A stretch of DNA of 54,934 bases from Acidobacteriota bacterium (GTDB taxonomy: Bacteria; Acidobacteriota; Vicinamibacteria; Vicinamibacterales; JAFNAJ01). Positions within the stretch are counted from its first letter, which is position 1. Every line of letters starts with the position of its first letter. Positions 3,156 through 54,699 of this stretch are shown here, piece by piece. The notes beneath the pieces are model-generated. The model did no database searches. It worked only from the letters and a program-made list of their open reading frames with translations, and had not been told where the DNA came from. Made by a program: the position numbers and the translations under genes. The DNA lies in contig JAHDVP010000037.1 in the NCBI GenBank assembly GCA_023384575.1, forward strand, positions 1-54,934, written 5' to 3'.

Positions 3156-4580
3156 ATGGTCTTCAACTCCCTGCACTTCGCGGCGTTCTTCGTCGTGGTG
3201 TACGCGCTCTACCGCGCGCTGCCGCACCGCGCGCAGAACTGGCTGCTGCTCGTCTCGAGCTACTACTTCTACGCCGCGTGGGACTGGCGGTTCCTCGGTC
3301 TGCTCATCGGCTCGACGCTCGTCGACTACACCTGCGCCCGCGCCATTGCGCGCACGGCCGACCGGGGGCGGCGGAAGCGCTGGCTGCTCGTCAGCCTCGC
3401 CTTCAACCTGGGCGCACTCGGCTTCTTCAAGTACTTCAACTTCTTCGCCGACAGCTTCGCCGACCTCATCGGTCTGGTCGGCATGCGCGCGAGCGTCACG
3501 ACGCTCGACATCATCCTGCCGATCGGCATCTCGTTCTACACGTTCATGACGATCAGCTACGTCGTCGACGTGTACCGGCGCGACATCGCGCCGACCGACG
3601 ACCTGCTCGACTTCGCGGTGTTCGTGGCCTACTTCCCGCACCTCGTCGCGGGCCCGATCCTGCGCGCCGCGAAGCTCATCCCCCAGATCGCGGTGCCGCG
3701 GCGGATCACGGCCGAGCAGGTGACCGACGGCGCCTGGCTCGTCGCGTGGGGCCTCTTCCAGAAGATCTTCGTGGCCGACAACCTCGCGAAGGTCACCGAG
3801 GCGATCTTCGCGCCCGGCGCCTCCCCGACGGGCATCGACGTGCTGATTGGCGTCTACGCCTTCGCGTTCCAGATCTACGGCGATTTCGCCGGCTACTCGA
3901 ACATCGCCCGCGGCACCTCGAAGCTGATGGGGATCGAGCTCAACGTCAACTTCCTCTTTCCCTACTTCGTCCTGACGCCAAGCGCGTTCTGGCGGCACTG
4001 GCACATCAGCCTGTCGACGTGGCTGCGCGACTACCTGTACATTCCCCTCGGCGGCAACCGCGGAGGCAGCGAGTGGATCACGCGGCGCAACCTGATGATC
4101 ACGATGGGGCTCGGCGGCCTCTGGCACGGCGCCGCGTGGAACTTCGTGGTGTGGGGGCTCTACCAGGGCCTGGTGCTCGTGGTGTATCGGTGGGCGGAGG
4201 GCGTCGCGGCCCGCCTCGGCCGGCGGTTGCCCACGACGCTGACACCGGCGGCCCTGGCGCTCGGCGTGTTGATGTTCCACGTCACCTGCTACGGCTGGCT
4301 GATCTTCCGGGCCCGCTCGTTCGGGCAGATCGTGTCGATGACGGCGTCGCTCGTCGGCGATCCCACGTTCGGACCGGAGACGGCTCGTCACGCCTTGGCA
4401 CTCGCAGCCTATGCGGCGCCGCTGCTCGTCATCCACACGTTCGAGGCCTGGCGCGACGACCTGCTGGCGATCTTCCGTCTGCCGATGCCCTGGCGGTACG
4501 CCGTTTACGGGGCGATGTTGTACCTGATGGTGCTCTTCGGCGACTTCGGCGGCTCGGAGTTCATTTACTTCCAGTTCTGA
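3156..4580 (+). CDS. MBOAT family O-acyltransferase (AlgI-like)
   Basis: A 474-residue polytopic membrane protein with the hallmarks of the alginate O-acetyltransferase AlgI/DltB group: an N-terminal 'NWLLLVSSYYFYAAWDW' segment, the central 'FWRHWHISLSTWLRDYLYIP' block, and 'GLGGLWHGAAWNFVVWG' with the catalytic-type His. These proteins move an acyl group across the membrane to an extracytoplasmic partner. The preceding SGNH hydrolase gene is the obvious partner. The length matches the family. Acyl group and acceptor glycan are unknown. Confidence 0.93.
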   Translation: MVFNSLHFAAFFVVVYALYRALPHRAQNWLLLVSSYYFYAAWDWRFLGLLIGSTLVDYTCARAIARTADRGRRKRWLLVSLAFNLGALGFFKYFNFFADSFADLIGLVGMRASVTTLDIILPIGISFYTFMTISYVVDVYRRDIAPTDDLLDFAVFVAYFPHLVAGPILRAAKLIPQIAVPRRITAEQVTDGAWLVAWGLFQKIFVADNLAKVTEAIFAPGASPTGIDVLIGVYAFAFQIYGDFAGYSNIARGTSKLMGIELNVNFLFPYFVLTPSAFWRHWHISLSTWLRDYLYIPLGGNRGGSEWITRRNLMITMGLGGLWHGAAWNFVVWGLYQGLVLVVYRWAEGVAARLGRRLPTTLTPAALALGVLMFHVTCYGWLIFRARSFGQIVSMTASLVGDPTFGPETARHALALAAYAAPLLVIHTFEAWRDDLLAIFRLPMPWRYAVYGAMLYLMVLFGDFGGSEFIYFQF

Positions 4581-4603
4581 TGCGGAGAATCCGATCGGCC
4601 TGC

Positions 4604-4631
4604 GGCTGGCGACTGGCGGCTGGCGGCCCTG
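4604..4631 (+). repeat. Degenerate heptanucleotide array (CGGCNNN x4)
   Basis: The gap between the MBOAT and flippase genes contains CGGCTGG, CGACTGG, CGGCTGG and CGGCCCT in perfect 7-base phase, the same theme as at 1750-1784. Confidence 0.6.
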
Positions 4632-4695
4632 ACGGTCGTTCGGCGCGTCGGCCCGACGGGGAGTCCGCGCGACGGGCGGCGGAGGGTAGACCGAC

Positions 4696-6240
4696 GTGGC
4701 CCGCCTGACCGGCTTCGTCCGCAACCTGGCCGTCTACGGCCTTGGTGACGTCGCGACGAACCTCGTCAGCTTCCTGCTGCTGCCGGTCTACGTGCGGCAC
4801 CTCTCGACGACCGACTACGGCGTCATCGGCCTGCTGCTCGGCGTCGAGGTGATGGCGAAGATCCTCTTCCGCTTCGGCCTCGACGCGTCGTTCATGCGGC
4901 TGTTCTTCGACTGCCCCGACGAGCGCGCGCGGCAGCGCCTGGCGAGCACGATCTTCCTCTTCCTCGCCGCCACCGGAGGGCTGGTGCTGTTGCCGGCTCT
5001 TGGCTTCGCCCCGTGGCTGTCGGCCTGGCTCTTCGGAGTCGGTGGCTACACGCTGGTGTTCCAGTTGGCCCTCGTGAACATCTTCGTGATGGGATTCAGC
5101 TTCATTCCCTTTCACGTGATGCGCATCGAGGGCCGCTCGGGCGAGTTCACCAGCCTGACGTTCGCGCGCTCGCTCTCCACCCTTGTCGTCAGGCTGCTGC
5201 TCGTCGTCGGCGTGGGCATGGGCGTGCTGGGCGTCGTGCTGGCCGACATCCTCGTCTCGGTCGCGGTGACCGTGGTCCTCCTGCCCAGGTACACGGCGCT
5301 GCTGCGGCCGATGTTCTCCCGCACACTGCTCGGCGAGGCGCTCGCCTTCGGACTGCCCAGGCTGCCCCACGGGCTCGCGCACCAGGTCATCGCGGTCGCC
5401 GACCGCTACGTGCTCCGCCTGTTCGTGCCGCTCGCCGACCTCGGCGTCTACACCATCGGAATGACGTTCGGCCTCGCGATGAAGCTCTTCCTGAGCGCGT
5501 TCGAGTACGCCTGGGCGCCGTTCTACTTCGCGACGATGAAGGAGGATCACGCCAAGGCGACCTTCCGCCGCGTGACGACCTGGGGCGTGATGGTGCTCGT
5601 GTGGCTCGCCGTGGGCCTCTCGGCCGTGGGGGGCGACGTCGTGCGCCTGATGACCGTGCCCGAGTTCTACCGCGCGGCCGACGTCATCCCCTGGGTCGCG
5701 CTCGGCGTGCTGCTCCAGGGCGTCTACCTCCTGACCTCGATCGGGCTCAACATCACCAAGAACACGAAGTACTATCCGGTCTCGACGGGGCTCGCGGCCT
5801 CAGTCAGCGTCGCCGCCAACTTCCTGCTCGTTCCGAAGTTCGGCATCGTCGGCGCGGCCTGCTCGAACGCGCTGGCGTACGGCGTGCTGGCGGCCTCGGC
5901 GTTCTGGTTCGCGCAGCGGGTCTATCCGATGAAGTACGACCTGCGGCGGATCGGGATGACGCTCGTCGCAGGGCCCCTCGTGCTCGCGCTCGTCGTGTTC
6001 GCCGTGCCGGACGACCTGCCTGCGCTGTGGAGCGCCGTCGCGCGGGGCGGCACGGTGGTGGTCGCGTATCCGGTCCTGCTCTTCGTCATGGGCTTCGGCA
6101 CCTGGCACGACCTCGTGCGGCTCGCAGGGCTGCTGCCGCAGGTGGCCGGCGTGGGCCGCGTGCGTCGGTCGGCCGACACCTCGGAAAAGGTGAGTGTCCC
6201 CTTTTCGTCGGGCGAGCCGCCGCCACGGGCAGACGCATGA
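4696..6240 (+). CDS. Oligosaccharide flippase (Wzx/MOP superfamily)
   Basis: A 514-residue protein with about 12-14 hydrophobic segments and a typical start, 'VYGLGDVATNLVSFLLLPVY', in which the first helix leads into the 'YVRHLSTTDYGVIGLL' loop of polysaccharide biosynthesis exporters. It should flip undecaprenyl-linked glycan from the cytoplasmic to the periplasmic leaflet. It starts with GTG at 4696. Its stop overlaps the ATG of the next gene (ATGA), so the two are coupled. The cytoplasmic tail beyond about residue 480 is hydrophilic. Confidence 0.88.
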   Translation: MARLTGFVRNLAVYGLGDVATNLVSFLLLPVYVRHLSTTDYGVIGLLLGVEVMAKILFRFGLDASFMRLFFDCPDERARQRLASTIFLFLAATGGLVLLPALGFAPWLSAWLFGVGGYTLVFQLALVNIFVMGFSFIPFHVMRIEGRSGEFTSLTFARSLSTLVVRLLLVVGVGMGVLGVVLADILVSVAVTVVLLPRYTALLRPMFSRTLLGEALAFGLPRLPHGLAHQVIAVADRYVLRLFVPLADLGVYTIGMTFGLAMKLFLSAFEYAWAPFYFATMKEDHAKATFRRVTTWGVMVLVWLAVGLSAVGGDVVRLMTVPEFYRAADVIPWVALGVLLQGVYLLTSIGLNITKNTKYYPVSTGLAASVSVAANFLLVPKFGIVGAACSNALAYGVLAASAFWFAQRVYPMKYDLRRIGMTLVAGPLVLALVVFAVPDDLPALWSAVARGGTVVVAYPVLLFVMGFGTWHDLVRLAGLLPQVAGVGRVRRSADTSEKVSVPFSSGEPPPRADA

Positions 6241-8051
6241 TTCGCCCACCGGCGCCCACGTCTCGGCTCGAGTGGATCGCGTTGGCCGCCATCGCGCTGG
6301 TCGCGGCCGGCCTCCGGTCGCGCAGTCTCGACTTCGGCCTGCCCGCCGTCTACAACCCCGACGAGATCGCCATCCTGTCGCGGTCGCTGGCCTTCGCCAC
6401 CGGCGATCTCAACCCGCGCAACTTCCTCTACCCCACCTTCTTCTTCTACGCCCTCTTCGGCTGGATCGGCCTCTCGTTCGTCTGGCGATGGCTGACCGGC
6501 AGCGTGGCCTCGACGTCGGCCTTCCAGACGGAGTTCTTCACCGACCCCTCGGCCATCTATCTCGCAGGGCGCACGCTGGGGGTCGTCTGCGGCGTGGCCG
6601 GGGTCGTCGCGGTGTGGGCGCTCGGTCGCCGGCTGCTCGGCCCGCGCGGCGGCCTCGTCGCCGCGCTCTTCCTGGCCGTCATGCCGGTCGCCGTGATCGA
6701 CGCACACTACATCAAGCACGACGTGCCGGTCACGCTCGCCGTCGTCGTCGCGCACCTGGCGATGACGAGACTTTTCACCGCTCCTGCGCCCGGCCCTCGC
6801 CTGACGGCGTCGGGCTCGACCGCGGCACCGGGGCGCGGAGCGCTGCTTGCGGCCGGCGCGGCCTGCGGTGTGGCGTTCTCCACGCACTACTACACCATCT
6901 TCCTCGCCCTGCCGCTCGGCCTGGCGGCATGGTGGTCGGCGCAGGGACGACCCCGGGCCGATCTCGTGCGCGCGTTCATCGGGGCCGGCGTGTCGGCGGC
7001 CGTGGTCTTCTTCGCGCTCTCACCGTTCCTGCTCGTCGAACCCGCCACCGCCTGGCGCGACATCGTCGCCAACCGTCAGATCGTCGTCGATCGGTCGGGA
7101 GCCGGCAGCGGGCGGCTGTTCGCGAGCGCCGGCGAGTATGCGGTCATGCTGTGGCGCGACGGCGCCAGGCCGCCGATCGTGGCGCTGGCCGTGGTCGGAT
7201 GGCTCGCCTGGCGGCGCCGCCAGCCGGGCATCGCGCTGTGGACCCTGATCTTCCCGGTCGCGTTCCTGCTCTTCATCACGAACACCGTCGCGGCTGCGCG
7301 CTACCTGAACCCGGTGCTGCCGTTCGTTGCGCTGTGGGCGGCGGCCGGGGTGCTGGCCCTCGCCGAGCGGCTGCGCACCAGGGAAGCACTCGCGACGGCC
7401 CTCGTCGCGCTGCTCGCCTCGGCATCGGCCGCGCGCGCATCGTGGCACGTCGGCACGTTCTTCGGGCAGGACGACACGCGAACGCTCGCGCAGCGCTTCA
7501 TCGAAGCGCACGTCCCCGACGGCGCGAGCGTCCTGGTCCAGCCGTACTCGGTGCAGCTCGCGCAGTCACGTGCCAGCCTCGAGGAAGCCCTGCGATCCAC
7601 GATTGGCGACCCGAGCCGCGCGTCGACGAAGTTCGCCCTTCGGCTGGCCCTCGACCCGTGGCCATCGCCAGCCTACCGCACGATCTACCTGGGCGACGGC
7701 GGCCTCGACGTCGACAAGATCTACGTCAGCTACGAGGCCTTCAGCGAGGGCACCCTCGACGCCCTGCGACGACTCGACATCGACTACGTCGTCCTGAAGC
7801 GCTACGACGATCCGCTCACGAGGCGCGTCGCCGACGCACTCGAGCGCGAGGCCGACCGGTTCGCGATCTTCTCGCCGTTCAAGGACGACGCGGCGCGGGG
7901 TCACCTGCGGACGATCGAACCCTACCTGCACAACACGCACACGCCCATCCACCCGGCGCTCGAGCGGCCGGGACCGATGATGGAAATCTGGAAGGTCAGG
8001 CCACCTCAGGGCGAGGAGGCCGGCGCACCGGCGCCTTCTTCGGGGGGCTGA
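6237..8051 (+). CDS. GT39-like polytopic glycosyltransferase (ArnT/PMT type)
   Basis: 604 residues: an N-terminal multi-spanning domain with the 'NPDE' motif (Asp42/Glu43, the conserved acidic pair of the first extracytoplasmic loop of PMT/ArnT enzymes), 'PVAVIDAHYIKHDVPVTL', and a soluble C-terminal part from about residue 420. Such enzymes take sugar from a polyprenyl-phosphate donor on the periplasmic side. The start overlaps the flippase stop by four bases. The 3' end overlaps the convergent TPR gene by 46 bases. Donor and acceptor are not evident. Confidence 0.85.
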   Translation: MIRPPAPTSRLEWIALAAIALVAAGLRSRSLDFGLPAVYNPDEIAILSRSLAFATGDLNPRNFLYPTFFFYALFGWIGLSFVWRWLTGSVASTSAFQTEFFTDPSAIYLAGRTLGVVCGVAGVVAVWALGRRLLGPRGGLVAALFLAVMPVAVIDAHYIKHDVPVTLAVVVAHLAMTRLFTAPAPGPRLTASGSTAAPGRGALLAAGAACGVAFSTHYYTIFLALPLGLAAWWSAQGRPRADLVRAFIGAGVSAAVVFFALSPFLLVEPATAWRDIVANRQIVVDRSGAGSGRLFASAGEYAVMLWRDGARPPIVALAVVGWLAWRRRQPGIALWTLIFPVAFLLFITNTVAAARYLNPVLPFVALWAAAGVLALAERLRTREALATALVALLASASAARASWHVGTFFGQDDTRTLAQRFIEAHVPDGASVLVQPYSVQLAQSRASLEEALRSTIGDPSRASTKFALRLALDPWPSPAYRTIYLGDGGLDVDKIYVSYEAFSEGTLDALRRLDIDYVVLKRYDDPLTRRVADALEREADRFAIFSPFKDDAARGHLRTIEPYLHNTHTPIHPALERPGPMMEIWKVRPPQGEEAGAPAPSSGG

Positions 8052-42296: not shown

Positions 42297-42395
42297 ACGA
42301 TCCCCGCCAGAGGGCCTGGCGACCGAGTGCCGCGGCCCGGGGACGGGGATGGGCCCCGCCCCACCGGCCCCGCCCCCGGTGCCACGCCCACGGAC

Positions 42396-44012
42396 ATGCC
42401 CGGACAGTCGCTCGCCTGGTGGAATCGGATTGGCGTCCGTCTGACGGCCGGCATCGTCGTCGTCACGTCGGTGACGATGGGACTGTTCGTGTTCCTGATG
42501 CTGCGGTCGCAGCGCGGGCACCTGGTGTCCGAGGTCATCGATACGTCCCACCTCGTTTCGGAGACCATCCGCAGCAGCACGTACCTCGACATGCTCGCGG
42601 ACCGGCGCGAGAACGTGTACCAGAACATGGCCGTGGTCGCCCGCCAGCCCCAGATCGACCGGGTGCGGATTCTGAACAAGGAGGGGCGGATCACGTTCTC
42701 GACCCAGGGCAACGAGACCGGCAGCCTCGTCGACACGCAGGCCGAGGCCTGCGTGCTGTGCCACGCGGCCGACGAACCCATCGTCCGGCCGGCGGCGAGC
42801 GAGCGCAGCCGGATCTTCGCGCGGAACGGGTCGCGGTTCATCGGCACGGTGACCCCCGTGTACAACGAGCCGAGCTGCTCGACGGCGGCGTGCCACGCGC
42901 ATCCCCCCTCGCAGCAGGTCATCGGCGTGGTCGACATCACGATGTCGCTCGACGAGGCCGAGCGCAACATCGCGCAGCTCGAGCGCGCCACGCTGGCGCT
43001 CTCGGGCATCGCCGTGCTCGGCGTCGCGGGTCTCGTGACGCTCTTCGCGCAGCGGCGTGTCGTGCGGCCGGTCCGGCACCTCTTCGAGGCCACGCACCGT
43101 ATCGCGGCGGGCAACTTCGCCGCGGCGGTGCCGGTCGACACGGGCGACGAGCTGGGCGTGCTCGAACACGCGTTCAACGACATGGCCTCGTCGTTGTCGG
43201 AAGCGCGTGCGGCCCGCCAGGAGCTGCTCGACTCGCTCGAACGCAAGGTCGAAGAGCGGACGGCGGCCCTGCGCCAGGCGCAGGAGCGCATGCTGCAGGC
43301 CGAGAAGCTCTCGTCGCTCGGCCGTCTGGCAGCGTCGGTCGCCCACGAGATCAACAACCCGCTGGCCGGCATCCTGACCTACGCGAAGCTGCTCGTGCGG
43401 ACGCTCGAGGACGGCGCCGAGTCGGACAAGGCGAAGGCCAGCGCCGTGAAGCAGCTGAAGCTCGTCCAGCGCGAGACCGAACGCTGCTCGGCCATCGTGC
43501 GCAACCTGCTCGACTTCGCGCGCGAGCGCGAGCTGACCCTGAAGCCCACCAGCGTCAACAAGGTCATCGACGAGGGCCTCGTCCTCATCTCGAACCAGGC
43601 GCGCCTGCAGAGCGTCACGGTCGACAAGCGGCTCGGCGACGTGCCCGACGTCCCGGCCGATTTCGGTCAGATCCGGCAGGCCGTGATCAACATCATCGTC
43701 AACGCGTGCGACGCGATGCCCGACGGCGGCACACTCACGATTGAAACGGACGTCGACCGCGACGGGATGGTGCGGGTTCGGATCAGCGACACGGGCACGG
43801 GCATCGACGAGGCGCACCTGACGAAGATCCTCGACCCGTTCTTCACGACCAAGCCGATGGGAACGGGACTGGGCCTGTCGGTCGTCTACGGCATCGTCGA
43901 GCGGCACGGCGGCCGGCTCGACATCGAGAGCGAGGTGGGCCGGGGCACGAGCGTGACGATCCGGCTGCCGACGGCGGCTGCGGCTCGCCCGGCGCCCGAG
44001 AGTGCGGCCTGA
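42396..44012 (+). CDS. Membrane histidine kinase with periplasmic heme-type motifs
   Basis: 538 residues. TM1 14-36. A periplasmic region 40-200 with CVLCH (119-123) and a C-x4-CH site (161-167, CSTAACH), which suggests one or two bound hemes. TM2 about 200-218, a HAMP linker, a coiled coil, then HisKA with 'SVAHEINNPLAG' (phospho-acceptor His317) and an HATPase with N, G1 'ISDTGTGIDE' and G2 'MGTGLGLSVVYG' boxes. It probably senses redox potential, oxygen, NO or a similar ligand and phosphorylates the response regulator two genes on. ATG 42396 is used; in-frame GTG at 42327 would add a low-complexity leader. Confidence 0.9.
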   Translation: MPGQSLAWWNRIGVRLTAGIVVVTSVTMGLFVFLMLRSQRGHLVSEVIDTSHLVSETIRSSTYLDMLADRRENVYQNMAVVARQPQIDRVRILNKEGRITFSTQGNETGSLVDTQAEACVLCHAADEPIVRPAASERSRIFARNGSRFIGTVTPVYNEPSCSTAACHAHPPSQQVIGVVDITMSLDEAERNIAQLERATLALSGIAVLGVAGLVTLFAQRRVVRPVRHLFEATHRIAAGNFAAAVPVDTGDELGVLEHAFNDMASSLSEARAARQELLDSLERKVEERTAALRQAQERMLQAEKLSSLGRLAASVAHEINNPLAGILTYAKLLVRTLEDGAESDKAKASAVKQLKLVQRETERCSAIVRNLLDFARERELTLKPTSVNKVIDEGLVLISNQARLQSVTVDKRLGDVPDVPADFGQIRQAVINIIVNACDAMPDGGTLTIETDVDRDGMVRVRISDTGTGIDEAHLTKILDPFFTTKPMGTGLGLSVVYGIVERHGGRLDIESEVGRGTSVTIRLPTAAAARPAPESAA

Positions 44013-44018
44013 CGGGGC

Positions 44019-44563
44019 ATGGCGGCGATCTACCTCTGGTGGATCGGGGCGGACGCGGCCGATCGCGACCTGCTCGAGCAGGTCAGGCAACAGGTGGGCC
44101 GGACGTTCGAGGCGCCGGCGGTGCTGTGGGACGATCCGTCCCGACCGACCGGGACGTACGACACGCGGCGCGGGCAGCATTCGTCGACCCAGATTCTGCG
44201 ATGGCTCGCCGCGCACCAGCCACCGGGAGCGATGAAGACGCTGGCCATCACCGATGTCGACCTGTTCATCCCCGTGCTCACCTTCGTCTACGGCGAGGCG
44301 CAGCTCGGCGGACGGGCGGCAGTGGTCTCGATGGCCAGACTCGGCGACGGAACGGCGCGGGTCTCGCCCGCCATGGTGAGCGCGCGCCTGGTCAAGGAGG
44401 CCGTGCACGAACTCGGGCACACCTTCGGCCTGACGCACTGCGGCAGCGAGCGCTGCGTGATGACGCGGTCGGTCAACATGGCCGGCGTCGACAGGAAGGC
44501 TGCCGTGCTCTGTGCCGATTGCCGCACGGTCTACAGGGATCGACTGCTGGAAGGATACGACCA

Positions 44564-44567
<4 letters not shown>
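44019..44567 (+). CDS. amzA: Archaemetzincin zinc metalloprotease
   Basis: 182 residues. 'HELGHTFGLTHC' (His130, Glu131, His134, His140, Cys141) then 'GSERCVM' and a later CADC fit the archaemetzincin pattern HExxHxxGx3Cx4CxM...CxxC, with 16 residues instead of 17 before the last CxxC pair. The Cys residues hold a structural zinc. 'FVYGEAQLGGRAAVVSMARLG' is also typical. No signal peptide, so cytoplasmic. It starts 7 bases after the kinase stop and its stop overlaps the regulator ATG, which places a protease in the middle of a signalling operon. Substrate unknown. Confidence 0.88.
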
Positions 44568-45922
<1,355 letters not shown>

Positions 45923-45936
45923 GGCCGAGCAGGACT

Positions 45937-46062
45937 GTTGAATCCTTCAACGGCCCGTTGAGAATCACCACACCCCGCCGGGTTGTGAGAATTCTCAACG
46001 TTTGTGGACTAATTCTGCGCCTCGCCTAGGCGGGCATTTCCGAGCCGTTGAGTTCTTCAACG
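45937..46062 (+). promoter_or_regulatory. Cluster of inverted-repeat operator sites (activator sites)
   Basis: Site 1: GTTGAATCCTTCAAC (45937-45951). Site 2: GTTGAGAATCACCAC (45957-45971), one good half only. Site 3: TGTGAGAATTCTCAAC (45984-45999), with a 12-base perfect core. Site 4: CGTTGAGTTCTTCAACG (46046-46062), a 17-base inverted repeat. The common theme GTTGA-N5/6-TCAAC lies 100-220 bases upstream of the -24 element, where NtrC-type activators bind. The regulator gene ends just upstream. Confidence 0.7.
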
Positions 46063-46157
46063 ATCTGGTGAGGCCGGTTTGTGGGCCTCTCTCAGCGAAT
46101 CAAGTTAACGTCAATTCCTGCAACTAGTTACACGTTTCAGGCTGCATGACGTCAGTC

Positions 46158-46173
46158 TGGCCCCGGTCTTGCT
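46158..46173 (+). promoter_or_regulatory. Sigma-54 (-24/-12) promoter of the redox operon
   Basis: TGGCCCCGGTCTTGCT has GG and GC at ten-base spacing, and nearly repeats the promoter at 42281. The transcript would start near 46184. This rules out translation of the first gene from the in-frame ATG at 46146 and leaves ATG 46221 or 46230. Confidence 0.75.
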
Positions 46174-46229
46174 GTCTGGAGGGGCAGGTGGCGCGGAGCC
46201 CTCGCGCAGCCTTCGATGGGATGGGAACC

Positions 46230-46508
46230 ATGAGCTGCCCGCACCTCAAGGAAGTCGTGATGCTCTTCTGTGACGCGTACCCCGTCAAGAAGATGCTGCC
46301 ACTCGACCGCATCGCAACCGCGCACCCCTGCCTGGGGCAGGACTACGAGAAGTGCCCGCTCTTCTGCGAGTTGATGGCTCGCCTCAATGGTGAGGACGTC
46401 GAGCCCGTAGAGTCCGGGTCGGAGAAAACTGGAAGGGAGAGCTGCCATGTTGCTCGCATTCTCGCTCACACCCGTGACGCTGGTGCTCCTCGCGCTCCTC
46501 GGCATTGA
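46230..46508 (+). CDS. Small Cys-rich protein, first gene of the redox operon
   Basis: 92 residues from ATG 46230 (ATG 46221 adds three). Cys residues at 3, 14, 34, 42, 46 and 72. The conserved-looking core is 'CPHLKEVVMLFCDAYPVKKM' followed by 'PCLGQDYEKCPLFCELM', which could bind a metal or Fe-S cluster. No signal peptide or membrane span. I do not recognise the family. The last 20 residues overlap a second, out-of-frame small gene and look non-conserved in style, so the functional part may end near residue 60. Its position directly after the promoter suggests a maturation or regulatory role for the complex. Confidence 0.65.
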   Translation: MSCPHLKEVVMLFCDAYPVKKMLPLDRIATAHPCLGQDYEKCPLFCELMARLNGEDVEPVESGSEKTGRESCHVARILAHTRDAGAPRAPRH

Positions 46509-46548
46509 GGCGCGGCGCCACCGCGCGCTCGCTGGCCGCACGCACTAG
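46447..46548 (+). CDS. 33-residue single-span membrane peptide
   Basis: ATG 46447 to TAG 46548, overlapping the end of the preceding gene in another frame. It reads MLLAFSLTPVTLVLLALL, then a positively charged tail rich in Arg and His. A strong purine ribosome site, GGAAGGGAG, sits 7 bases upstream, better than those of its larger neighbours. One membrane helix with a cytoplasmic cationic end fits a small accessory subunit, like those of bd oxidases, but the family is not recognised. Confidence 0.5.
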   Translation: MLLAFSLTPVTLVLLALLGIEARRHRALAGRTH

Positions 46549-46597
46549 GCACTCGCGGATTGGACCCACGCCCTCGACTGATTCCGGAGAATCGGCG

Positions 46598-47509
46598 ATG
46601 AACCTGTCAAGACGGACCTTCTTCAAGACCTGTGGCGCAGCGGGCGCCGCGACGCTGGCCGCCAGGCCGGCCGACGCGGCGCCGTCGGCCACGCCCGGCG
46701 CCGAGATGAGCGCCGTGCTCGTCGACACGACCCGCTGCATCGGCTGCCGCGCGTGCGAGGCGGCGTGCGGTGAAGTCAACCATCTGCCCGCCCCCGACCT
46801 CGCTGGCGAGGCGCAGGTGTTCGAGAAGAGGCGTACGACGGCTCCGGCCGTCTACACGGTGGTCAACCGCCGTGAGGTGGCCGGGGGCGAGCGTTTCGTG
46901 AAGACGCAGTGCATGCACTGCGTCGAGCCGGCCTGCGCGTCGGCCTGTCCCGCGCGCGCGATCGAGAAGACGGCCGCCGGACCCATCATCTACCACGTCA
47001 ACCGATGCCTCGGCTGCCGCTACTGCATGCTGGCCTGCCCGTTCGACATCCCGAGGTTCGAGTACGAGAGCGCGGCGCCGTATATTCGAAAGTGCACCTT
47101 CTGCGCCGACCGCCAGGCCGAAGGCCTCGAGCCGGCGTGCACCTCGGTCTGCCCGACGGGCGCGCTCACCTTCGGCAAGCGCGCCGCCCTCATCGAGGAG
47201 GCGCGGGAGCGCATCTACCACAACCCCGGCGAGTACGAGCGCCACGTCTACGGCGAGCGCGAAGTCGGTGGCACCTCGTGGATGTACATCTCCGATCGGC
47301 CGCTCGCGCAACTGGGGCTTCCGTCGCACCTCGGGACGACCCCGCACACCGCGCTGGCTCAGGGCGCCTTGTCGGTCGTGCCGCTCATCATCACCCTCTG
47401 GCCACCTCTCCTGATGGGGATCTACACCTTCAGCAAGCGTCGCGAGGCGCTCGCGCACGAACATGCCGAGTCCATCCGCGGCTCGCACGAGGAGGACCGT
47501 CATGCGTGA
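46598..47509 (+). CDS. Tat-exported HybA-like ferredoxin, four [4Fe-4S] clusters
   Basis: 303 residues. The Tat signal 'LSRRTFFKTCGAAGA' is followed by four Cys groups: 'CIGCRACEAAC', 'CMHCVEPACASACP', 'CLGCRYCMLACP' and 'CTFCADRQAEGLEPACTSVCP' (in part), as in HybA, DmsB and PsrB-type subunits. A C-terminal helix ('ALSVVPLIITLWPPLLMGIY') anchors it at the periplasmic face. It should pass electrons between the NrfD-like quinone subunit and a periplasmic partner. GGAGA is eight bases before ATG 46598. The next ATG overlaps its end by 8 bases. Confidence 0.93.
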   Translation: MNLSRRTFFKTCGAAGAATLAARPADAAPSATPGAEMSAVLVDTTRCIGCRACEAACGEVNHLPAPDLAGEAQVFEKRRTTAPAVYTVVNRREVAGGERFVKTQCMHCVEPACASACPARAIEKTAAGPIIYHVNRCLGCRYCMLACPFDIPRFEYESAAPYIRKCTFCADRQAEGLEPACTSVCPTGALTFGKRAALIEEARERIYHNPGEYERHVYGEREVGGTSWMYISDRPLAQLGLPSHLGTTPHTALAQGALSVVPLIITLWPPLLMGIYTFSKRREALAHEHAESIRGSHEEDRHA

Positions 47510-48719
47510 CCAGAGCATCACCGCACGGCCCTGGGTCACCGAGAAGATCTTCCTCGGTCTGTCGCTGCGCGACTACGTGCGCAGCCTGATGACGCCAGGA
47601 ACGCTCGTCGCTGGTCTCATTCTGACCATCGGCATCCCAATCATCGTCTACCGCTTCATCTTCGGCCTCGGCGCGGTGACGAACCTGACCCAGACGACGC
47701 CCTGGGGCATCTGGATCGGCATCGACGTGCTGAGCGGCGTCGCGCTCGCCGCCGGCGGCTACACGCTCGCGAGCGCCGTTTACATCTTCGGCCTCAAGGA
47801 CTACCACGCGGTCGTCCGGCCGGCCGTGCTCACGGGCTTTCTCGGCTACCTCTTCGTCGTCATCGGGCTGATCGTCGACCTCGGGCGCCCGTGGAACCTG
47901 CCCGTGCCGATGGTCTACTCGTTCGGCACGACGTCGGTGATGTTCGAAGTCGCCTGGTGCGTCGCGCTCTACGCCACCGTGCTCTTCCTCGAGTTCCTGC
48001 CGGCCATCTTCGAGTGGCTCGGCTGGAGCAAGGCGCGGCTCTGGGCCGTCAAGCTGACGATCGGCGTGACGGTGCTCGGCGTGCTGCTGTCGACGCTGCA
48101 CCAGTCGTCGCTCGGCGCCCTGTTCCTGATGGCGCCGACGAAGATGCACCCGCTGTGGTACTCGCCGTACATCCCGGTCTTCTTCTTCATCTCGAGCATC
48201 GCGGCCGGCCTCAGCATGGTCATCTTCGAGAGCACGCTGTCGCACAAGTACTTCTCGAACCGGGTGCCGCAGCACTCGCACGAGAAGATGGACCGCATCG
48301 CGCTCGGCCTCGCGAAGGCCGCGTCGGTGGTCCTCTTCAGCTACTTCTTCCTGAAGCTGCAGGGCCTCGCCGTGGGCGAACACTGGGGGCTGCTCGGCAC
48401 GTCGTGGGGCGCCTGGTACCTCGTCGAGTTGCTCGGCTTCATCGTCGCCCCGTGCCTCATGTTCGCCCATGCCGTCCGGACGTCGAACGTGCGGCTCGTC
48501 CGGTGGACCGCCGCGTGGACGGTGCTCGGCATCGTGGTGAACCGCCTGAACGTCTCGGTCATCTCGATGAACTACAACGTCGAAGAAATCTACGTCCCGA
48601 GCTGGATGGAGGTCTGGACCACCATGACCATCATCACCATCGGGATCCTGACCTATCGGTGGATCGTGAACCGGATGCCCGTGCTCGATGAGCACCCCGA
48701 GTATCGCGAGTCGCACTGA
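47502..48719 (+). CDS. NrfD/HybB-like quinone-interacting membrane subunit
   Basis: 405 residues with about ten spans. 'TPWGIWIGIDVLSGVALAAGGYTLAS', 'VIGLIVDLGRPWNLPVPMVY' and 'LSTLHQSSLGALFLMAPTKMHPLWYSP' (in part) are the HybB blocks, with Glu/Asp/His residues that surround the quinone site. No heme motif. It moves electrons between the quinone pool and the HybA-like ferredoxin and may couple this to proton movement. GGAGG lies seven bases before the ATG inside the previous gene. No NiFe hydrogenase or molybdopterin subunit gene accompanies it. Confidence 0.93.
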   Translation: MRDQSITARPWVTEKIFLGLSLRDYVRSLMTPGTLVAGLILTIGIPIIVYRFIFGLGAVTNLTQTTPWGIWIGIDVLSGVALAAGGYTLASAVYIFGLKDYHAVVRPAVLTGFLGYLFVVIGLIVDLGRPWNLPVPMVYSFGTTSVMFEVAWCVALYATVLFLEFLPAIFEWLGWSKARLWAVKLTIGVTVLGVLLSTLHQSSLGALFLMAPTKMHPLWYSPYIPVFFFISSIAAGLSMVIFESTLSHKYFSNRVPQHSHEKMDRIALGLAKAASVVLFSYFFLKLQGLAVGEHWGLLGTSWGAWYLVELLGFIVAPCLMFAHAVRTSNVRLVRWTAAWTVLGIVVNRLNVSVISMNYNVEEIYVPSWMEVWTTMTIITIGILTYRWIVNRMPVLDEHPEYRESH

Positions 48720-48734
48720 CACCCGGAGGCTGAC

Positions 48735-49430
48735 ATGGGTTCGCACGACATCCTGACGCTCTACTCGACCAAGGCCATCGAATACGGCATCGCCGTCGCC
48801 TTCCTGCTCCTGTTCGTCCCCTTCTGGCGCTTCGTGAGCGCCGAGGCCCAGCCGGCGCTCGCCGCCGCGAGAGTGAGGCCGGTCTTGACCGACCTCGTGG
48901 AGTGGTTCCGCATGGCGCGTGACGTCGCGTTCCACCCGGGCCACGCCTGGGCCCGTGCCGAAACGCCCGGCCTCGTTGCCGTCGGCATGGACGACTTCGC
49001 CCAGAAGCTGGTCGGTCCGGTGCACGCCATCTCGCTGCCGACGGTGGGCACGCGCGTCGCCCAGGGCGACCGGGCCTGGCGGCTGCACGTCGACGGCAGG
49101 GCGGTCGACATGGTCTCGCCGGTCGACGGCATCGTCTCGGCGGTCAACCACCGCGTGCTCGAGTCGCCGGAGACGGTCGGCCAGGATCCGTACGGCGCCG
49201 GCTGGCTGTTCAAAGTCCAGGCGCCGCGGTTCGAGGCGAACCAGAAGAGCCTGCTCTCGGGCACGCTGGCGCGCCGCTGGCTCGAGGACGCGACCGACGC
49301 CCTGCGGCTGCGTCTCAGCCCCGACCTCGGCCTGGCCCTCCAGGACGGCGGCCTGCCGGTCGACGGGCTGGCGCACGCCATCGACGACGGGCGCTGGGAT
49401 GAGATCGCCAGGGAGTTCCTGCTGACCTAG
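48735..49430 (+). CDS. Membrane-anchored GcvH-like protein lacking the lipoyl lysine (first copy)
   Basis: 231 residues. One span (17-35), then a GcvH-like domain: 'FHPGHAWARAETPGLVAVG' corresponds to the 'HEW.R...VGIT' start, 'VSPVDGIVSAVNHRVLESPE' to the barrel core, and 'DPYGAGWLFKVQ' to the end. In GcvH the lipoylated Lys is eight residues before this Pro; here that residue is Gly121, within VDGRAVD. So no lipoyl arm can be attached there. A C-terminal helical part (170-231) is not in GcvH. A structural or docking subunit of the redox complex is the likely role. Confidence 0.85.
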   Translation: MGSHDILTLYSTKAIEYGIAVAFLLLFVPFWRFVSAEAQPALAAARVRPVLTDLVEWFRMARDVAFHPGHAWARAETPGLVAVGMDDFAQKLVGPVHAISLPTVGTRVAQGDRAWRLHVDGRAVDMVSPVDGIVSAVNHRVLESPETVGQDPYGAGWLFKVQAPRFEANQKSLLSGTLARRWLEDATDALRLRLSPDLGLALQDGGLPVDGLAHAIDDGRWDEIAREFLLT

Positions 49431-49468
49431 CCCCGGACCCCGCGATGGTCCGGTCACGGAGATCGACG

Positions 49469-49825
49469 ATGCGACACGCACACCGGTGGACGGCCCGATT
49501 CGTGGTGACCGCAGCCGCGGCCGCCTTCGTCGTGGCACTCGGCGCCCAGACGATGCCGAAGCTGCCCGAGGCGATCGAGCTGCCGCTCGACGAGAACAGT
49601 CCCGGCGTGGTGACCTTCAACCACGACACGCACATCGACGCGAAGCAGCCCGACTGCACGACGTGCCACCCGTCGATGTTCCGAATCGTGCCGAAGGGCT
49701 CGCCCGTGGCCCGCACGGTGATCACGCACGAACGGATGGACAAGGGCGAGCTGTGCGGGAGCTGCCACGACGGCGAGAAGGCGTTCGCAATGGACGACGA
49801 CTGCACCTACTGCCATCGGGAGTAA
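49469..49825 (+). CDS. Periplasmic triheme c-type cytochrome (c7/c3-like)
   Basis: 118 residues. Sec signal ('RFVVTAAAAAFVVALGAQ'). Three heme sites CTTCH, CGSCH and CTYCH, plus 'FNHDTHID' and 'VITHERM' as further axial His, matching class III/c7 cytochromes, where each heme is bis-His. It should carry electrons from the membrane complex into the periplasm. GGAGA lies six bases before ATG 49469; an in-frame ATG at 49445 is the alternative. It sits between the two GcvH-like genes. Confidence 0.9.
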   Translation: MRHAHRWTARFVVTAAAAAFVVALGAQTMPKLPEAIELPLDENSPGVVTFNHDTHIDAKQPDCTTCHPSMFRIVPKGSPVARTVITHERMDKGELCGSCHDGEKAFAMDDDCTYCHRE

Positions 49826-49885
49826 CGAGACCGGTCGGTCGGAGTCACACGCGCAGTTCGCACTCGAGAGAACAGGGAGATCGTC

Positions 49886-50587
49886 ATGGAACCGCTCATC
49901 ACCTTCGCTCAGACGGCGGCCATCGTCGTTGCGGGGATCGCCCTGCGGTTCCTGGTCGCGGTGGCTGGCTTCGCGCTCATCCTCGTTCCGATCGTGCTCG
50001 TCGTCGCCGCGATCGTCGGCGTGGGACGCGTGCGCGACTACGCGACGGGCATCGCGCGCCTCGGCAACCTGTTCTGGCGCGACGGGCTGTTCTACGCGCC
50101 GGGCCACACGTGGGTGCGGCCGGAAGCGAGCGGCACCGTGCGCGTCGGCCTCGACGACCTGGCGCAGCGGCTGCTGCCTGGCGTGCACGCCGTACGCCTG
50201 GTCGAGCCCGGCACCGATCTTCGGGCGGGTGATGTGCTCGCCGAAGTGCAGGTGAACGGTCGGTCGGCCCGCATCACCGCACCGGTCGACGGGCGTGTCG
50301 TCGCGATCAACCGTGGGGTCGACCGCGACCCGACGGTGCTGCATCACGACCCGTACCGCCGCGGCTGGCTCGCGAAGTTCGCTCCGCAGAACGACGACTA
50401 TCGCAAGCTGCCTACTGGAGAGGCCTCGCGCCAGTGGCTGTGGAACGAGGATACGCGGCTCATCCAGTACCTGGAGCAGGAGCTCGGCGTGGCCGCGGCC
50501 GATGGTGGCGAGTACATCCTGCCGGCCCCGGCGCTGCTGAGTGACGAGCAGTGGACGGCGGTGACGAAGGAGTTCTTCAAGGCGTGA
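49886..50587 (+). CDS. Membrane-anchored GcvH-like protein lacking the lipoyl lysine (second copy)
   Basis: 233 residues, same layout as the gene at 48735 but with a longer hydrophobic start (6-46, one long or two short spans). GcvH-like part: 'YAPGHTWVRPEASGTVRVG', 'ARITAPVDGRVVAIN', 'DPYRRGWLAKFAP'. The Lys position is Gly125, in VNGRSAR, the same Gly-Arg as in the first copy. The two proteins are clearly diverged, so loss of the Lys is old and conserved. GGGAG precedes the ATG. Last gene of the operon. Confidence 0.85.
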   Translation: MEPLITFAQTAAIVVAGIALRFLVAVAGFALILVPIVLVVAAIVGVGRVRDYATGIARLGNLFWRDGLFYAPGHTWVRPEASGTVRVGLDDLAQRLLPGVHAVRLVEPGTDLRAGDVLAEVQVNGRSARITAPVDGRVVAINRGVDRDPTVLHHDPYRRGWLAKFAPQNDDYRKLPTGEASRQWLWNEDTRLIQYLEQELGVAAADGGEYILPAPALLSDEQWTAVTKEFFKA

Positions 50588-50707: not shown

Positions 50708-51418
50708 TTACCGACCCGCCAGCGCGAGCGACAGCACACCGACCGTCGCCAGCACCTGACCGACCCAGAAGACGAACGCCCACTTGATCAGGTCGGCCCG
50801 CAGCGACGCCATCTCCGTGCGCAGGTCGGCTCCCTGCTTGGCCAGTTCTTGCCGAACATCCGACCTGAGGTCGCCCACCTGCTCTCGTACCTCCGACCTG
50901 AGCTCGCCCATCTCCTGTCGCAGTTCCGACCTGAGCTCGCCCATCTCCTGTCGCACATCCGACCTGAGGTCGGCCATCTCCTGTCGCAGGGCCGAGCCGA
51001 GCGCGGCCGTCTCCTGGCGCAATTCTGCGCCCTGGGCCGCCAGCTCCTGCCGCAGGGCCGAGCCGAGCGCAGCCATCTCCTGACGCAACTCTGCGCCCTG
51101 GGCCGCCAGCTCCTGCCGCAGCTGCGAACCGAGGTGGAACATCTCGGCGTGAAGGGTCAGGTCGAGGGCCCTCACGGCCTGGTGGGTCTCGCCGCGGTGC
51201 ACGGCGAACTCGGCCCGAACCGTGGAGCGCAAGTCGGCGATCTCGACCTGCAGACGGCCGAGCTCGTCGACGAGCGTCCGTCGTACCTCGAGCGTCGCCG
51301 CGCCAATCACCTCACCGCTCCACTCCTCGTAGGTCTCGTCGAGCAGGTTCGAGAGGTCGCGCGACGCCTCGGCTCCGAGCCGCGCAGCCAGCGCCGCGGG
51401 CAGCGATGCTCCGTGCAT
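50708..51418 (-). CDS. Hendecad-repeat coiled-coil protein with C-terminal membrane anchor
   Basis: 236 residues. Residues 1-95 are helical. Residues 100-210 are about ten 11-residue repeats of the type [11 protein letters not shown], i.e. a long right-handed coiled coil, and '[21 protein letters not shown]' anchors it (211-234). It resembles DUF1640/CCDC90-like proteins, coiled-coil tail-anchored membrane proteins. Probably oligomeric; role unknown. The repeats are also 33-base DNA repeats. It is convergent to the redox operon and divergent from typA. Confidence 0.75.
50789..51121 (-). repeat. 33-base tandem repeats inside the coiled-coil gene
   Basis: About ten imperfect 33-base units, each encoding one hendecad, with two sub-types (…ELRSE and …AAQGAE). 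Neighbouring units are nearly identical in DNA, which points to recent unit gain or loss. Confidence 0.75.
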
Positions 51419-53712: not shown

Positions 53713-54699
53713 ATGAGTGGTGCAGATCGGCCGAAGCCTCGCCTGCTGGATCAGGTACGGCACACCCTCCGCCTGGGGCACTACAGTCTCCGGACCGAGG
53801 AGGCGTACGTGACCTGGATCCGGCGCTTCATCTTGTTCCATGACAAGCGGCATCCCTCGGAGATGGGCGAACGCGAGGTCGTGGCGTTCCTGACTCACCT
53901 GGCGGTCGAGCGACATGTGAGCGTCTCGACGCAGAACCAGGCGCTTGGGGCGGTGCTCTTCCTGTACCGGAAGGTGTTGCGCCGGGAGTTGGCAGACCTG
54001 ACCGCCGTTGTCCGGGCTCGTCGACCCATGCGCCTTCCCGTGGTGCTGAGCCGTGGTGAAGTGCAGGCCGTGCTCAACCAGTTGGGCGGCGTGCCCTGGA
54101 TGGTGGGTGCGTTGCTGTACGGCTCAGGGCTGCGTCTCAACGAGTGTCTGGCGCTGCGGGTGAAGGACGTGGACTTCGAGCGGCGGCAGATCGTCGTCCG
54201 GCAGGGCAAGGGCGCCAAGGACCGCGTCGTGCCGCTGCCGGGACTCGTCGTGCCGCGCCTCGAAGGGCACCTGGGCCGCGTTCGTGCGTTGTTCGACGCC
54301 GATCGGAAGGCGGGCGTGGGAGGCGTCGTGATTCCCGACGGGCTGTCGCGGAAGTATCCCACGGCGCCGCTGGAGTGGCCGTGGCAGTTCGTGTTTCCGG
54401 CGGGACGGGTGTGTCGGGACGCGCGCTGGGGCGGGCCGACGCGATATCACCTCCACGAGACGGCGATCCAGCGAGAGGTGGCGGCGGCGGTACGTCGAGC
54501 TGCACTTGGAAAGCGCATCAGTTGTCACACGTTTCGGCACTCGTTTGCGACTCACCTCTTGGAGGATGGCTACGACATTCGCACCGTACAGGAACTGCTG
54601 GGGCACCGGGATGTGAGCACGACGATGATCTACACGCATGTCCTGCAACGGGGTGCGCTGGGCGTTCGAAGCTCTGCGGACCGTCTCTCGCCGCCGTGA
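53713..54699 (+). CDS. intI: Integron integrase (IntI-type tyrosine recombinase)
   Basis: 328 residues. SAM-like N-domain ('LLDQVRHTLRLGHYSLRTEEAYVTWIRRF' in part) and catalytic domain with Arg141, His272, Arg275, His298 and Tyr307, all present. Residues 207-232 ('IPDGLSRKYPTAPLEWPWQF' and 'VFPAG') are the extra segment unique to integron integrases, needed for binding folded attC sites. The C-terminus 'DVSTTMIYTHVLQRGALGVRS' is also IntI-like. Appears intact. No attC array or cassette gene lies in the 235 bases downstream, and typA lies upstream. Confidence 0.92.
   Translation: MSGADRPKPRLLDQVRHTLRLGHYSLRTEEAYVTWIRRFILFHDKRHPSEMGEREVVAFLTHLAVERHVSVSTQNQALGAVLFLYRKVLRRELADLTAVVRARRPMRLPVVLSRGEVQAVLNQLGGVPWMVGALLYGSGLRLNECLALRVKDVDFERRQIVVRQGKGAKDRVVPLPGLVVPRLEGHLGRVRALFDADRKAGVGGVVIPDGLSRKYPTAPLEWPWQFVFPAGRVCRDARWGGPTRYHLHETAIQREVAAAVRRAALGKRISCHTFRHSFATHLLEDGYDIRTVQELLGHRDVSTTMIYTHVLQRGALGVRSSADRLSPP

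Follow-up and report, generated by a model that had tools for sequence, protein, structure and literature searches.

Gene content of the locus

The window, i.e., the whole stretch of 54,934 nucleotides that was analysed, carries between positions 46230 and 50587 seven ORFs, all on the + strand, whose positions and order we confirm from a preliminary description of this DNA. That description covered these seven genes only; the genes are real, but the conserved unit starts at about 42327 and adds genes for a histidine kinase (HK), an M54 archaemetzincin and a response regulator (RR), an upstream half that had been missed. The full conserved locus (42327–50587) falls into two halves, HK-M54-RR and then the genes from cysR to gcvH2. 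Pfam and NCBIfam searches support it with matches to Fer4_11, NrfD, GCV_H (twice) and Cytochrome_C7 / nanowire_3heme; cysR and a 33-aa peptide match no family in either collection, and an Rfam search gave no match.

The sensor HK (42327–44012, +) has a periplasmic domain carrying the haem-c motifs CxxCH and CX4CH, i.e., a diheme sensor, together with HAMP, HisKA and HATPase domains. A Cache sensor domain with haem c, joined to signalling modules, has been reported to bind NO (PMC12889525). The M54 gene (44019–44567, +) encodes an archaemetzincin-like zinc protease with an intact HELGHTFGLTHC-X4-CVM...CADC motif, matching the pattern HEXXHXXGXXHCX4CXM...CXXC (HELGHTFGLTHCGSERCVM...CADC); it keeps the catalytic residues and is a predicted protease. 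Its stop codon overlaps the start codon of the RR gene (ATGA). The RR (44564–45922, +) is a sigma-54-dependent activator of the NtrC/AtoC type, with a receiver, an AAA+ sigma-54 interaction domain and a Fis HTH, and RpoN is encoded in the genome.

The downstream half opens with cysR (46230–46508, +), encoding a small cytoplasmic protein with four invariant cysteines (C3, C14, C34 and C42), and with a single-TM micropeptide of 33 aa (46447–46548, +). These are followed by an HmcB/HybA-like four-cluster ferredoxin (hybA, 46598–47509, +), an NrfD-family membrane subunit (47502–48719, +) nearest to HmcC, gcvH1 (48735–49430, +), an exported triheme cytochrome c7 (49469–49825, +) and gcvH2 (49886–50587, +).

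Further along, the window holds a coiled-coil ORF on the - strand (50708–51418), rich in LRQEMxxLRS-like repeats and with a membrane segment at its C-terminus, and, near the contig end, an integron-integrase-like tyrosine recombinase (53713–54699, +).

A palindrome and a sigma-54-type promoter upstream of cysR

Two copies of the palindrome GTTGA-N5-TCAAC lie between RR and cysR (GTTGAATCCTTCAAC at 45937–45951 and GTTGAGTTCTTCAAC at 46047–46061), along with a sigma-54-type element TGGC-N7-TTGCT on the + strand (TGGCCCCGGTCTTGCT, 46158–46173). The two palindromes compare with 0.02 expected from shuffled windows, and the 5.9-Mb genome holds five matches in all, 2/5 of them at this locus, and none to the reversed control pattern. 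Across 46 loci (671 kb), exact palindromes are all found directly upstream of the cysR/gcvH operon, with one exception, in several families of Acidobacteriota, in Rokubacteria and in Nitrospinota, and several further loci have single-mismatch versions at the same position. In Deltaproteobacteria the palindrome is absent from many loci and is a poor predictor.

From the motif counts, the position of the palindrome across loci and the presence of RpoN, there is a strong inference that both copies are candidate binding sites of the RR of the locus, which indirectly supports regulation of the operon by this protein. In two loci (L118 and L124), the palindrome precedes gcvH genes in a same-strand run that also holds HK, RR and M54, which suggests autoregulation of the run.

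The motif combination also occurs elsewhere. In the same genome (L108, G000:C29, 2283–2343), GTTGA-N5-TCAAC and a near-perfect sigma-54 element (TGGCACCGTCGTTGCT) precede a small ORF that matches nothing in Pfam; 2–5 kb beyond the palindrome follow a gene resembling NosL and a multihaem cytochrome (4314–7135). In another genome (L097, G013:C161, at about 16.5 kb), the palindrome and a sigma-54 element precede a nine-haem TM-anchored cytochrome and then a cytochrome b-like ORF; this nine-haem cytochrome, encoded on the operon's contig, is a possible second regulon member.

The electron-transfer genes are nearest to Hmc

The NrfD protein matches PF03916 above the gathering score (65.7 bits, model positions 2–303 of 313) and, among NCBIfam models, reaches 536.7 bits with HmcC, just below the curated cut-off of 550, and only 85.6 bits with QrcD, far below the cut-off of 570; all seven NrfD orthologues aligned from the same order also match the HmcC model. 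The ferredoxin-like protein begins with a Tat-type signal, contains four 4-Cys cluster motifs and carries a membrane segment at its C-terminus; its best family is HmcB, again below the cut-off (351.6 bits vs 420). No HmcA (16-haem) above the cut-off is encoded in the whole genome (best score 19.9 bits vs 400), and no QrcB-like gene lies within the locus. By these tests the locus is not an Hmc complex.

The preliminary description held that HybA/HybB-type pairs normally serve a catalytic subunit, a rule to which the pairs of Hmc, Nhc and Cbc4, which serve cytochromes, are counterexamples. The triheme c7 is a natural electron partner of the NrfD/ferredoxin pair, which probably works like the HmcB/HmcC part of Hmc, the electron step that links NrfD, the HmcB-like protein and c7 being read from knowledge of the family (NrfD review, PMC8076601).

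Membrane-anchored GcvH-like proteins without the lipoyl lysine

That both gcvH genes encode GcvH-like folds with membrane anchors, as first described, is borne out. The GCV_H match covers the middle part of each protein, and the structure model of gcvH1 (pLDDT 87) opens with a TM helix, continues with a GcvH fold and closes with an extra C-terminal helical domain, with H-proteins of the PDB matching at E 1e-12 and a TM-score of 0.85–0.9 by target; gcvH2 has a hydrophobic N-terminus (probably two TM segments) before its GcvH fold. In both, the column of the lipoyl lysine holds Gly, as opposed to Lys in two true GcvH in the alignment; the lysine is kept in only four of about 80 GcvH-like proteins from the loci, and the same genome also encodes a normal GcvH at a different place. 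No match to gcvH1 was obtained among viral contigs.

The GcvH domain is most likely cytoplasmic, an orientation supported indirectly by the charge bias across the TM segment: Lys/Arg are richer after it than before in 35/38 membrane-anchored GcvH-like proteins, and the reverse is seen in 0/38. Such an orientation makes a role as periplasmic subunit unlikely. Soluble GcvH-like proteins also exist, with N-terminal four-Cys domains and no signal peptide, and Bryobacterales have GcvH fused to a four-Cys domain that follows the CysR pattern. Gene fusion and neighbourhood link CysR to the GcvH-like proteins; its own structure model is poor (pLDDT 59).

A single-TM peptide of 24–33 codons directly follows cysR in 13/13 Acidobacteriota loci examined, and this conserved slot makes the 33-aa peptide more than a chance ORF. 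In Nitrospinota and Rokubacteria the same slot is occupied by the membrane segment of gcvH2, which suggests that the micropeptide may be a membrane anchor that became separated from a gcvH2-type gene after cysR.

Conservation and changing contexts of the GcvH-like genes

Conservation of the gene order in relatives, a point on which the preliminary description had let its reading depend, holds both within the order and in other phyla: eight further genomes from this order carry HK-M54-RR-cysR-hybA-nrfD-gcvH1-c7-gcvH2, as far as their contigs extend. Among named genomes, a scan turned up all or part of the set in Acidobacteriota, Rokubacteria, Nitrospinota, Gemmatimonadota, Deltaproteobacteria (including Desulfarculales, Syntrophobacteraceae and Desulfobulbaceae) and Myxococcota. 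On contigs of Rokubacteria, Nitrospinota and Deltaproteobacteria the order is conserved, with gcvH2 shifted beside cysR.

The GcvH-like genes occur in three contexts, i.e., alongside an Hmc-like pair, alongside a QrcABCD operon of Qrc-like type, or beside HK-RR-M54 alone. In the second (L048–L052, from Bryobacterales and one Myxococcota contig), the Qrc-like operon is flanked by two GcvH-like genes, one of them fused to four-Cys domains; by NCBIfam, the operon of L050 scores 216 bits with QrcA, above the cut-off of 180, and near the cut-offs of QrcC and QrcD. Alternative complex III was rejected for these loci, the operon of L050 being Qrc-like by NCBIfam. In the third, membrane GcvH-like proteins stand beside HK-RR-M54 with no NrfD (L118 and L120), or a soluble GcvH-like protein that carries two four-Cys domains of the CxWMxAGV type is encoded divergently from M54-RR-HK in Deltaproteobacteria, with no NrfD/HybA nearby (L039–L047). 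In several M54 proteins of the latter loci the canonical zinc motif is missing.

These contexts bear on what the GcvH-like proteins do. They could belong to NrfD-type quinone complexes, as subunits for structure or assembly on the cytoplasmic side, with HK, RR and M54 providing local expression control, as suggested by their membrane anchors and by the interleaving of their genes with hybA-nrfD-c7. The pairs flanking the Qrc-like operon, in two cases with HK, RR and M54 absent from the examined flanks (L049 and L050), fit a structural as well as a regulatory role. However, the soluble four-Cys fusions beside M54-RR-HK and the membrane-anchored forms of L118 and L120, both apart from NrfD, argue against a structural role, which we consider unlikely, if well short of negligible. 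The preliminary proposal of a quinone–periplasm complex with GcvH-like structural subunits thus survives in part: a quinone-linked, periplasm-facing electron-transfer unit agrees with the HmcC/HmcB-like pair plus c7, but GcvH-like subunits on the path from quinone to periplasm are not supported, given the cytoplasmic charge pattern, the soluble versions and the HK-RR-M54 loci with no NrfD/HybA nearby.

M54 also co-occurs with the GcvH-like genes. In statistics that ignore the relatedness of genomes, 38/78 strong M54 matches in 396 Acidobacteriota genomes have a listed GcvH-like gene at most 16 kb away, and 73/139 in 297 Desulfobacterota genomes have one at most 10 kb away; M54 is present in 34/37 Acidobacteriota genomes with strong GcvH-like matches (vs 97/396 overall) and in 70/74 such Desulfobacterota genomes (vs 108/297 overall). 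Pairwise distances of HK, RR, M54, hybA, nrfD and gcvH1 are correlated (r 0.62–0.88, 20–22 loci, no housekeeping control), a correlation that may reflect species phylogeny alone.

It is very improbable that the GcvH-like, four-Cys and M54 genes are unrelated bystanders of an ordinary transmembrane complex of the Hmc/Nhc type, even though the NrfD and HmcB-like proteins score near the HmcC/HmcB cut-offs: several phyla retain the set despite changed order, M54 and GcvH-like genes are found together far above chance, and the genome lacks an HmcA above the cut-off. A role of the GcvH-like proteins as lipoyl carriers, passing reducing equivalents to the complex as GcvH or the LbpA of the sHdr pathway might, has the GcvH fold and its clear PDB matches in its favour but is rejected as extremely unlikely, since the lipoyl lysine, strictly kept in LbpA (PMC6067878), has given way to other residues in the two window proteins and in nearly every relative, and the genome encodes a normal GcvH at another place.

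Proposed mechanism and significance

We regard the chances as about even that the locus combines a haem-sensor-controlled respiratory unit with a module that is portable, faces the cytoplasm and serves in regulation or as an adaptor. NrfD would exchange electrons with the quinone pool, and the four-cluster HmcB-like protein would carry them, in either direction, between it and the periplasmic triheme c7, which could link to other periplasmic cytochromes, forming a quinone:cytochrome c oxidoreductase similar to Hmc, Nhc or Cbc4. The diheme HK would sense a periplasmic redox or ligand state and phosphorylate the NtrC-type RR, which would bind the GTTGA-N5-TCAAC palindromes and start the operon via sigma-54. 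Together with CysR and the TM peptide, the two GcvH-fold proteins would make up a cytoplasm-facing membrane module devoid of lipoyl chemistry, and we infer that this module, as adaptor or sensor, most probably relays the state of the quinone complex to HK/RR and to the archaemetzincin.

More specifically, and with less than even confidence, we tentatively propose that GcvH folds without lipoate and their four-Cys partner act as a membrane adaptor or sensor at the cytoplasmic side of NrfD-type complexes, talking to a diheme HK, an NtrC-type RR and an archaemetzincin, in a portable cassette that occurs in several phyla with an Hmc-like, a Qrc-like or no quinone complex and would represent a new redox signalling system.

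For non-lipoylated GcvH-like proteins and bacterial archaemetzincins, neither of which has a known role in most bacteria, this provides a shared genomic address and a hypothesis that can be tested, the control of quinone-linked respiration. The DNA motif and neighbour set also offer a handle for finding the system in Acidobacteriota, Desulfobacterota, Gemmatimonadota, Rokubacteria and Nitrospinota, where electron-transfer chains are poorly understood.

Comparison with known systems

No published description of the set was found in a search, not exhaustive and with most subscription papers outside it, that covered GcvH with NrfD, Hmc, Cbc, ACIII, archaemetzincin and sigma-54 regulons. The locus resembles Hmc (HmcABCDEF of Desulfovibrio) in its best matches to HmcC/HmcB, a cytochrome c partner and a tiny single-TM protein; it differs in falling below both curated cut-offs, in having no HmcA and no HmcE/HmcF seen adjoining, and in having GcvH-like, four-Cys, M54 and HK-RR proteins as additional partners. 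Among named systems of three parts the nearest analogue, compared by description only, is Cbc4 (CbcSTU), the Geobacter menaquinol:cytochrome c complex composed of an NrfD-type CbcU, an Fe-S CbcT and a small multihaem CbcS (PMC11434368); however, CbcS has four haems (PMC10989804) as opposed to three in the window cytochrome, and GcvH-like partners are not mentioned there. With Qrc (QrcABCD) the locus shares relatives of its GcvH-like pair, which flank the Qrc-like operon in L048–L052, but it has no QrcB-like subunit and its NrfD is far under the QrcD cut-off.

On the side of the accessory genes, gcvH1 and gcvH2 share the H-protein fold with LbpA and GcvH and differ from them by their membrane anchoring, the missing lipoyl lysine and, in gcvH1, an extra C-terminal helical domain. 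CarG of Myxococcus xanthus, an M54-fold protein in transcription control that has lost the catalytic Glu (PMC3427221), is a precedent for an M54-fold regulator, although the window M54 retains HELGH and the partners are not the same. The quinone oxidoreductase part of the locus is probably of a known kind, and its accessory module may be new in kind.
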